Below, one piece after another: positions 5,642-8,414 of a stretch of 64,000 nt of DNA. The position numbers and the translations under genes were made by a program. This DNA comes from Acidimicrobiia bacterium. GTDB lineage: Bacteria; Actinomycetota; Acidimicrobiia; Acidimicrobiales; Bin134. Within the stretch, counting starts at the first letter, position 1. Every line of letters starts with the position of its first letter. The stretch is taken from contig JAJEGM010000053.1 in assembly GCA_022819825.1 (NCBI GenBank), positions 191,722-255,721 on the forward strand, read 5' to 3'. The notes under the pieces were generated by a model. That model had not been told where the DNA came from and did not search any database. It saw nothing but the letters and a program-made list of their open reading frames with translations.

Positions 5642-6427
5642 TCAATTCATGCGGGCACGAGCAAGGGTGGCCAGTCGTTGAAGCTGGTCCTCATCATCGT
5701 CCTCAGCAACTTGGGCCAATTGCTCGAACCGACGGGCGGCCTGGTCGAATCGGCCCCGCTCCATGTTGATCATGCCGAGTTGTTTTGCCTCGCCGGCTGG
5801 AACCGATGGGCACATCGTCCGCAACTCCAGCACCCACTCCAGATTGGCGTAGTCCTTGTTCTGGGCGTAGATCGCTCGAAGGTTCCCCAGCATTCTCTCC
5901 ATGATCGACGAGTGGTCCACCGGGGCCAGATAAGCGGGATGGAAGCCTTTGTCACCCCCGGTGATCTGGTGGAAGAGCTGCTCGCAACCCTGGGCGTCGA
6001 GCAGCGCTCCCCCGGCATACACGTCGATGAACACGTCGGTCTCGTTGCGATCCCGGATCAGGAAATGCCCTGGCAGCCCGATGCCGTCGAAGTCATTGCC
6101 AGAGAGCTGTCCAATGGCGATCGTGAGTACGGCAAGGCTGATGGGAATGCCGGTGCGCCGGTGTATGACCTCATTCAGGAAAGAGTTCCGCGGGTCGTAG
6201 TAGTCCGCCCGGTTGCCGTGAAATCCCAGTTCGCTGAACAGTGAATGCAGCATTCCGTCTCGGCTGGAGCGGTCGCAGCGATCGACCAGTGCGTGGAGCC
6301 GGTCGAGTTCGGCTTGGAAATCCATCCCAGGGCAGCCGTGAGCGGCAATGCACAGCGCGCCCTCATGGAGCGCGAACTCCTCGTCTTGGAGCAGTTGCCT
6401 GAACTTCTCCGCGGGATCCCAAGCCAC
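5642..6427 (-). CDS. SirB1/transglutaminase-like protein with TPR-like C-terminus
   Basis: YYDPRNSFLNEVIHRRTGIPISLAVL...GIGLPGHFLIR. Confidence 0.8.
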   Translation of the reverse strand: MAWDPAEKFRQLLQDEEFALHEGALCIAAHGCPGMDFQAELDRLHALVDRCDRSSRDGMLHSLFSELGFHGNRADYYDPRNSFLNEVIHRRTGIPISLAVLTIAIGQLSGNDFDGIGLPGHFLIRDRNETDVFIDVYAGGALLDAQGCEQLFHQITGGDKGFHPAYLAPVDHSSIMERMLGNLRAIYAQNKDYANLEWVLELRTMCPSVPAGEAKQLGMINMERGRFDQAARRFEQLAQVAEDDDEDQLQRLATLARARMN

Positions 6428-6464
6428 GAGTAGTGAATCTACTCCGACTACTACTCTTTCGCTG

Positions 6465-7220
6465 GTGAGTGCTTGGCCGTTCTTGGACCATGACGGCCCG
6501 ATTCCCATCGCCCACAGGGGGGGCGCCGCGGAGGGGCCGGAGAACACCATGGCCGCGTTCGCCGCCGCCATCGACCTCGGCTACCGATATGTCGAGACCG
6601 ACGTACACGCCACCCGCGACGAAGTGCTGGTGGCATTCCATGACGAGGGGTTGCAGCGCCTCAGCGGACGGCCCGAGGCCATCGCCGACCTGAACTGGCG
6701 GGATCTGAAAACGGTACGAGTCGGCGGTGAACACGCCATTCCCCGCTTCGAGGAACTCTTGGAAGCCTGGCCCGACCTCCGGATCGCGGTCGACCCCAAA
6801 CACGACCAGGCCACTGTGCCATTGATCGGTGCCCTCCAACGCGCCGACGCCATCGACCGCGTCTGCGTCGGCTCGTTTTCCGGCCGCCGACTGGCCCTCG
6901 CCCGGCGGTTGGGAGGACCCCGCTTGTGTACCGGACTGAGTCCCAAGGAGGTCGGCCAACTCCAGGCTGCATCGGCTGGTTTGCCAGTAAAGGTCAAGGC
7001 CGGCGCGTGCGCCCAGGTTCCCCCAAGCGCCAAGGGTGTTCCGCTAGTCCACCAGCGATTCGTGGACGCTGCCCACGCCCAAGAACTTTCAGTGCATGTG
7101 TGGACCATCGACGATCCCGACGAGATGCACCGACTCCTCGACATGGGGGTGGACGGCATCATGACCGACCGGCCCACCGTGTTGCGCGACGTTCTTGTGG
7201 CGCGCGGGATGTGGGCCTGA
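6465..7220 (+). CDS. glycerophosphodiester phosphodiesterase
   Basis: IAHRGGAAEGPENTMAAFAAAIDLGYRYVETDVHATRDEVLVAFHDEGLQR. Confidence 0.9.
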   Translation: MSAWPFLDHDGPIPIAHRGGAAEGPENTMAAFAAAIDLGYRYVETDVHATRDEVLVAFHDEGLQRLSGRPEAIADLNWRDLKTVRVGGEHAIPRFEELLEAWPDLRIAVDPKHDQATVPLIGALQRADAIDRVCVGSFSGRRLALARRLGGPRLCTGLSPKEVGQLQAASAGLPVKVKAGACAQVPPSAKGVPLVHQRFVDAAHAQELSVHVWTIDDPDEMHRLLDMGVDGIMTDRPTVLRDVLVARGMWA

Positions 7221-7326
7221 GGGTCGATTCAAGCTCCAAACCGGGCTTATGCCTGTGGTTAAATCCAGGTTTCTTGGGGATTTCTACTCACAGCAGTGGA
7301 AAACCCTGTGGATTTCGTTTTTTAGC

Positions 7327-7354
7327 TTGACCTGGGTTTTTTCCGCGCTATGGT
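7327..7354 (+). promoter_or_regulatory. predicted sigma-A promoter: TTGACC (7327-7332), 16 bp spacer, TATGGT (7349-7354)
   Basis: near-consensus -35 and TANNNT -10, predicted TSS about 7361. Confidence 0.55.
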
Positions 7355-7360
7355 ATGCCC

Positions 7361-7683
7361 ACCTACCAGAGACAAGCGGGGTGACTCGAGAGAGCAAGCG
7401 CCCGAAAGGGCGAAGGTTCACAAGAGTCCGCAGGGTCACTGGAACGGGCCGAGGAAGTCGGTGGCACCACCGAAAGCCAAGGACCGGGAAGGCGGCCAGG
7501 TGCCGCGAGGGTCTGGGAGGTAGGAACCGGGGAACCGGGGGGCGCAAGCCCGCTGAGGCTCCGGGACCGAACGGGACGGCCCCGAGAAGTCGACCGGTTT
7601 CGACCGGGAGGCTACTCGGGGTCTCCTGCTTTTCTGACGAGTCTCAGAACCTGCCCACCGGGACTCGGGGCCTCCTGCTTTTC
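7361..7683 (+). ncRNA. candidate highly structured non-coding RNA
   Basis: hairpins CGCCC-GAAA-GGGCG (7399-7412), TCGGTG-GCAC-CACCGA (7458-7473), GGGC-GCAA-GCCC (7540-7551), CCCCGAG...CTCGGGG (7580-7621) enclosing GGT-TTCG-ACC; lies behind a promoter and lacks a convincing conserved ORF. Confidence 0.6.
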
Positions 7684-7706
7684 CCTGGCGCTTCGCAACT
7701 CAGGCA

Positions 7707-8414
7707 GTGGGCCTAAGTAGGGTGAGCGCCGTGAGCGGACCCGCAGTAGCACTGCTGCACGGACTGGCCGGCTCGGCCCGCAGGACTTGGGGAGACAATG
7801 CCTGGCTCGACCTTCTTGCCGATGCGGGCCGAGAGGTGATCGGGGTGGACTTGATGGGCCATGGCACCGCCCCCAAACCCCACCATCCCGAGGGTTATGC
7901 CGATTTCGAACAGCATGTGATTGACCACTTTCCGGAGGCGCCCATCGACGCCATCGGATTCTCGCTGGGGGCCTACACCCTGCTGTCCATCGCGTCCAAG
8001 ACCCCGGAGCGGTTCCACCGACTGGTGGTTTCCGGGGTGGGCAAGAACCTCTTCGAGCGGGACGAGGACCACAGTCGCATGATCCTTCACGCCGTTACCG
8101 GCGAACCCGACCCCGAAAACCCCGAAGCCCTCCACTTCTCCACCTTGGCCGACGATCCCGAAGCCGACCGGGAGGCACTGGCCGCCCTGTTGGCCAGCCG
8201 CACCGCCTTCGACACCGATTGCCTGGCCGATGTCGCCGTACCCACCCTTGTGGTTGTGGGCGATAAGGACTTCGCCTACCCCGCCGACCAGTTGGTCGAA
8301 GCCCTCCCCAACGCCCGCCTCATCGTCCTCCGGGGCGTCGACCACTTCGCCACCCCCAAGTCCTTCGACTTCATAGACGCCGCCCTCGATTTCCTCGACG
8401 CCCGCCCCTTCTAG
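7707..8414 (+). CDS. alpha/beta hydrolase
   Basis: VALLHGLAGSARRTW, GFSLGAY nucleophile elbow, terminal VDHF. Confidence 0.85.
   Translation: MGLSRVSAVSGPAVALLHGLAGSARRTWGDNAWLDLLADAGREVIGVDLMGHGTAPKPHHPEGYADFEQHVIDHFPEAPIDAIGFSLGAYTLLSIASKTPERFHRLVVSGVGKNLFERDEDHSRMILHAVTGEPDPENPEALHFSTLADDPEADREALAALLASRTAFDTDCLADVAVPTLVVVGDKDFAYPADQLVEALPNARLIVLRGVDHFATPKSFDFIDAALDFLDARPF

Follow-up and report, generated by a model that had tools for sequence, protein, structure and literature searches.

Organisation of the locus

The window, which is the whole analysed stretch of 64,000 nucleotides from an Acidimicrobiia bacterium, contains a candidate RNA gene between two protein-coding genes. The features of the locus are as follows:

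6348-7220, + strand: GDPD (glycerophosphodiester phosphodiesterase) gene, upstream neighbour (Pfam PF03009, 152 bits; synteny)
7327-7354, + strand: sigma-70-type promoter TTGACC-16-TATGGT (a TTGAC-type promoter occurs in nearly every homologue)
7361-7634, + strand: structured non-coding RNA of about 274-275 nt (start predicted from the -10 element; the terminator sets the end)
7663-7700, + strand: partial second copy of the terminator 3' half, outside the core RNA (recent tandem duplication)
7707-8414, + strand: alpha/beta hydrolase gene, downstream neighbour (Pfam PF00561 / PF12697; synteny)

An initial annotation made from the letters alone had placed an RNA gene between a GDPD gene and a hydrolase gene, behind a strong promoter. 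Both neighbours were confirmed by Pfam matches, and TTGACC-16-TATGGT was the sole promoter detected in 7150-7800 (0.0 +/- 0.2 in shuffled sequences). The annotated RNA is structured, but its length of about 320 nt was most likely an overestimate, and the 3' end is very probably the T run at about 7634. Bases 7635-7700 represent the partial terminator duplication and are missing from most relatives. The tandemly duplicated 3' half reads CTCGGGGCCTCCTGCTTTTC in this part of the window; three copies were observed in L002, two in L003 and one in most relatives.

Within the genus, homology extends from a point 5' of the promoter as far as the terminator. Conservation begins well 5' of the promoter, reaching at least 7253, and covers a DnaA-box-like array that the initial annotation had overlooked. 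The locus lies 1.05 Mb from dnaA in genome G006 (3.81 Mb) and 1.45 Mb from it in G014 (3.59 Mb).

Open reading frames of 173 and 87 aa overlap the RNA region and had been regarded as chance ORFs. This reading agrees with the comparison: no frame is open across the relatives, in which stops and indels of 1, 2, 8, 17, 22 and 45 nt break the frames, and no conserved protein in one frame was found among them. The unit has its own promoter and terminator, a covarying structure and no conserved ORF, as an autonomous structured sRNA gene would. Positions 7361-7634 are almost certainly a real, conserved and autonomous RNA gene, and its transcription is predicted from these signals.

Fold, domains and covariation

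The minimum free energy was far below that of dinucleotide shuffles, with a z-score of -5.2 over 7361-7690 and of -5.9 over the 275-nt unit, in line with the stable hairpins described at the outset, and both the GAAA and the GCAA hairpin loops are present. All representatives (22/22) folded better than shuffles, with z values from -2.3 to -7.2. A consensus structure was built on an alignment of 20 sequences from genus homologues, in which 97.8% of the alignment cells were paired. Covariation among these homologues was significant: ten pairs had changed on both sides, against 2.0 in shuffles, including three pairs in helix 1 and three in helix 6, and none of 500 shuffles attained any of the observed covariation measures. 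Three parts make up the RNA, namely a long irregular rod that the 5' end closes, a GCAA-looped hairpin in the middle and a 3' hairpin:

7361-7521, + strand: domain I, a long irregular rod with an inserted side arm (closed by 7361-7369 with 7513-7521)
7382-7426, + strand: removable side arm of 45 nt, its hairpin capped by GAAA (cleanly missing in L018 and L019)
7523-7568, + strand: domain II, a hairpin with a GCAA loop (consensus structure)
7573-7634, + strand: domain III, the 3'-terminal hairpin followed by the T run, an intrinsic terminator (the most conserved part of the family)

The exact loss of the side arm in two relatives is as expected for a modular RNA. An alternative local pairing of the 5' end, CCAG...GCGG with CCGC...CUGG (7428-7442), was dropped, and the rod closed by 7361-7369 with 7513-7521 was kept because it fits the relatives L087 and L103 better. 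The CCCCGAG...CTCGGGG helix does not close the whole RNA as formerly thought; it is the stem (7580-7621) of the 3'-terminal hairpin and terminator. Domain III follows the pattern CCCCGAG-RAG-YYGA-NCGG...CCGN-RAGG-YUA-CUCGGGG, and its internal motif RAG-YYGA / RAGG-YUA is strongly conserved. Across 30 divergent members, 10 of the 19 pairs of this hairpin showed changes on both sides against 4.8 in shuffles, and this cross-family covariation exceeded all 500 shuffles.

Distribution of homologues

Homologues were detected by BLASTN of the region in 20 of the 22 genomes of the genus, which includes the sponge-associated Candidatus Poriferisocius (Acidimicrobiales). At E <= 0.001, a covariance model of the 3' hairpin matched 70 of 249 genomes of the order, representing 47 of 159 genera; the weakest matches are uncertain, and the E-values of home-made models are rough. 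Elsewhere in the phylum, the model matched very few genomes. A pattern scan of named genomes yielded 39 loci, mostly Acidimicrobiia or Acidimicrobiales MAGs, and the remainder belonged to Actinomycetes, Actinomycetota or unassigned bacterial MAGs.

The RNA is single copy per genome and varies in length: L078 has 159 nt, the window RNA 275 nt, and many Acidimicrobiaceae have forms of 570-600 nt. The GDPD gene adjoins it in more than 10 loci of other families, including the 570-600-nt forms, and the hydrolase gene is also near it in L042, L050, L074 and L087; these loci are therefore regarded as positional orthologues. The homologues, the covariation, the fixed promoter and terminator and the lack of coding potential strongly support the earlier proposal of a lineage-specific structured RNA. 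Members share ancestry and the counts do not represent independent events, so most weight lies on the compensatory changes, on the constancy of the box positions between families and on the comparison with oriC in which the tested family was left out.

Several variants were observed at the margins of the family. Two tandem copies of a related RNA occur in G319 (L059/L068; about 400 bp apart) and G307 (L061), which belong to another order of the class; their variant hairpin reads CCCCGAGAGGG...CCCUCGGGG, and L059 contains many repeated CCCGAGAGGG hairpins. Candidates with the same 3' hairpin motif were found outside the class in L173 (G275), L175 (G290) and L178 (G291); L173 and L175 are about 190 nt long, with a TTGACC promoter and a single CTGGGGA box only. 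A stray 35-nt fragment of the RNA sequence, flanked by the direct repeat GTAGAGCACGCCGACCAAAACGATGACGGCGCCGAC, lies at an unrelated place of one relative (L026, G013:C16:36295-36330).

Searches for known RNAs

No Rfam family matched the RNA or its representatives at gathering or relaxed E-value thresholds, and only chance hits were returned, e.g. F6 at 19 bits; this search had been named as a check at the outset. The RNA family is in none of the 4227 families of Rfam 15. The exclusion of RNase P RNA and tmRNA was upheld: the RNase P RNA (RF00010) of the genome is elsewhere (G000:C26, 245 bits), and ARAGORN and Rfam gave no tmRNA in the window. The 6S RNA (RF00013) covariance model had no match in the window or in 41 related genomes, whereas the controls were matched. 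Among the papers covered by a literature search, no description of such an RNA was found.

DnaA-box-like array at the promoter

Four DnaA-box-like sites precede the promoter in the window:

7253-7263, + strand: CTGTGGTTAAA, 73 nt before the -35 element (at most one mismatch to TGTGSAYAA)
7274-7284, + strand: TTGGGGATTTC, 52-53 nt before the -35 element (15.8 bits with a PWM trained on other families)
7294-7304, + strand: weaker box CAGTGGAAAAC, about 32 nt before the -35 element (5.7 bits)
7306-7316, + strand: CTGTGGATTTC, 20-21 nt before the -35 element (16.1 bits)

Boxes of the same orientation (CTGKGGATTTC / TGTGGACAA) lie 5' of the -35 element in nearly all members. Their positions peak at -85/-86, -73/-74, -52/-53 and -20/-21, with a weaker peak near -32, and 110 boxes are forward against 14 reverse over 31 promoters. 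The box at -52/-53 is present in 22 of the 31 representatives and that at -20/-21 in 24. The spacings of about 11, 21, 22 and 11 bp place the boxes on one face of the DNA. At the distance of the CTGTGGTTAAA site (about -73), other families have TGTGGACAA or TGTGCATAA, and the counterpart of CAGTGGAAAAC in relatives reads GTGGATAAC or GGGATAAC. Sites with at most one mismatch to TGTGSAYAA numbered 25 in 20 loci against 0.86 expected, most of them at -73 to -76. A textbook DnaA box (TGTGGACAA, TGTGCATAA) often occupies the -74 site, with perfect copies at -74/-75 in many families. The other boxes read CTGKGGATTTC; the TGGGGATTT form at -53 and -21 departs from the DnaA consensus of E. coli. The locus thus carries several DnaA-box-like sites at fixed promoter-proximal positions, the arrangement looked for in a DnaA-controlled promoter.

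The exact sequence TGGGGATTTC is found 7-8 times per genome; of these sites, the RNA locus alone has the promoter array. The pattern GGGGATTTC-N-AGTGGATAACCCTGTGGA gave no matches in the own genome, a count that reflects an ill-fitting pattern, as the window has GTGGAAAACC. The full array is missing from the f57 members (L042, L074) and from the distant member L093. These two members of family f57 (L042, L074) retain a pair of CTGGGGATTTC boxes 21 bp apart, but the usual position has no TTGAC promoter, and a -35 element of the TTGCA type may serve there.

Comparison with chromosome origins

Origins were compared by using a leave-family-out matrix, with the expectation taken from flanking coding DNA. 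Applied to ten dnaA-dnaN intergenic origins, the matrix derived from the promoters of other families gave 44 sites, where 4.0 were expected. The promoter boxes are therefore very probably DnaA boxes, as judged by sequence comparison, and the box type of the RNA promoter is that of the chromosome origin in this lineage. The 11/21-bp phasing was also found at oriC upstream of dnaA. In the genome's own dnaA-dnaN intergenic region (L111:3413-3652), TGGGGA(A/C)A boxes occur besides TTATCCACA; together they form an unusual DnaA-box dialect at the origin of the genus. The presence of TTATCCACA in the site immediately before dnaA had first led to the promoter boxes being read as non-DnaA sites, a reading that was overturned by the dnaA-dnaN regions.

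Proposed function and alternative explanations

The fixed, regularly spaced row of DnaA-box-like sites before the promoter suggests that the RNA is made in step with chromosome replication. We consider it likely that DnaA controls the RNA promoter. On balance, we favour a class-wide structured sRNA of Acidimicrobiia whose transcription is coupled to DnaA and which acts in trans. The promoter would sit at the end of a helically phased, one-orientation array of four to five DnaA-box-like sites, and DnaA would bind this array beside RNA polymerase, adjacent to the -35 element. Bound DnaA would activate, or gate, transcription of the RNA according to the DnaA/replication state, in step with initiation. 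The sequence itself displays the conserved structure, the promoter, the terminator and phased boxes of the type used at oriC; the binding of DnaA, the direction of regulation, and the abundance and the target of the RNA are predictions. Judged from its form, the stable RNA may then act in trans as a protein-binding regulator; the putative recognition parts would be the 5' rod and the conserved 3' hairpin with its tandem G.A internal motif, while the middle would be free to vary in size. More tentatively, in a class in which neither 6S nor Ms1 was found, a trans-acting RNA on an oriC-like phased-array promoter might report on replication initiation or influence it in turn, with RNA polymerase or DnaA itself as examples of what it might tune.

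Four other explanations were weighed. The first is an Acidimicrobiia counterpart of Ms1/6S, in which the 5' rod binds RNA polymerase (core or holoenzyme) and tunes its availability. The 5' domain is indeed a long irregular rod, 6S was not found in the 41 relatives, the size and single-gene layout resemble Ms1 (PMC4191392), and the hairpin family was seen in Acidimicrobiia plus a few further lineages, in contrast to Ms1, which is given only for orders of Actinomycetia (PMC9130861). On the other side, no large central bubble is predicted (internal loops of the compact L103 reach about 6 x 6 nt at most), the best conservation lies in the 3' hairpin instead of a bubble, the length ranges from 159 to about 600 nt, Rfam gave no signal, and neither the HAD-IB synteny nor the near-origin position of Ms1 applies. 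We regard this explanation as unlikely, and RNA polymerase as a doubtful partner of the RNA.

A similarly low probability is given to control by another regulator with a DnaA-box-like target, which would place the RNA in a stress or stationary-phase circuit. The departure of TGGGGATTT from TTATCCACA agrees with it, and the mismatch of the -53 and -21 boxes to the E. coli consensus makes binding by some other protein of like specificity conceivable. However, the same box type is enriched at the ten origins, perfect TGTGGACAA/TGTGCATAA sites stand at -74/-75 in many families, and the phasing is that of oriC upstream of dnaA.

Less probable still is a locus that works mainly as DNA, namely a datA/DARS-like site that titrates or reactivates DnaA, with transcription merely modulating it. 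Such a site would suit an upstream array that is among the most conserved stretches, boxes that match those of oriC and an RNA body that varies freely in size and sequence. However, the fixed distance of the array to the conserved -35 element is as expected for promoter control, and DNA titration does not need RNA covariation or a near-invariant 3' hairpin. A repeat, whether mobile or due to chance, or an overlooked gene for a small protein as the overlapping ORFs (173 and 87 aa) might suggest, has almost no probability against a single-copy, syntenic locus with strong pair covariation and frames broken by stops and indels in relatives.

Under the preferred reading of a DnaA-coupled RNA, a conserved promoter far from oriC would link a non-coding RNA to replication initiation in a whole class, and this link between the cell cycle and RNA regulation would be testable in cultured Acidimicrobiia. 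In Actinomycetota other than Actinomycetia, structured RNAs have hardly been explored. The combination of a near-invariant promoter array and 3' hairpin with a body whose length varies almost fourfold at a syntenic locus is unusual.

Comparison with known systems

A sponge of the CsrB/RsmZ type resembles the present RNA in its fast-changing body, conserved upstream activating sites and strong terminator. This candidate was disfavoured because GGA motifs are not enriched (10 in the window RNA against 12.3 expected). The CcnA ncRNA of Caulobacter, encoded within the origin and under CtrA control, acts by base-pairing with mRNAs (PMC8959179). It is likewise an ncRNA tied to a replication and cell-cycle control system and has weak DnaA boxes, whereas the present locus is 1.05-1.45 Mb from dnaA and has an ordered array upstream of its promoter. 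An antisense RNA to dnaA in Bacillus is another near idea (PMC12112137). The likeness to 6S RNA consists of the rod-like 5' domain and a probably abundant, housekeeping-type sRNA; the RNA described here differs in being multi-domain, 159-600 nt long and without a predicted open-promoter-like bubble.

The identity guessed initially, an Ms1/6S-like RNA, was not supported: neither an Rfam match nor 6S was found, and the synteny and near-origin position of Ms1 are absent. The hallmarks of Ms1 are a flanking gene for a HAD-IB hydrolase (CicA/Rv3661-like) and a long hairpin with a conserved central bubble and short end hairpins. Here, the neighbours are the GDPD and alpha/beta hydrolase genes, with no HAD-IB hydrolase, and the TIGR01490 matches of the genome are on contigs C21 and C5, not on C36; Ms1 was rejected by synteny. 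Ms1 is about 300 nt long, with a sigma-A-like promoter and an intrinsic terminator, and lies near oriC in 84% of cases (PMC4191392); it is given only for orders of Actinomycetia, with Acidimicrobiia not mentioned (PMC9130861). By size and layout, it is nevertheless the nearest known system (PMC4191392, PMC9130861). Ms1 (Mycobacterium MTS2823 / Streptomyces scr3559) and the present RNA are both intergenic single-gene units of Actinomycetota in this size range, with a sigma-A-type promoter, an intrinsic terminator and a structure better kept than the sequence. A long irregular 5' rod is present here; its predicted internal loops are small, and no large central bubble is predicted. The present RNA further differs from Ms1 in its distance of 1.05-1.45 Mb from dnaA, in the DnaA-box-like array at its promoter and in a conserved 3' hairpin that is rare or weak outside Acidimicrobiia.
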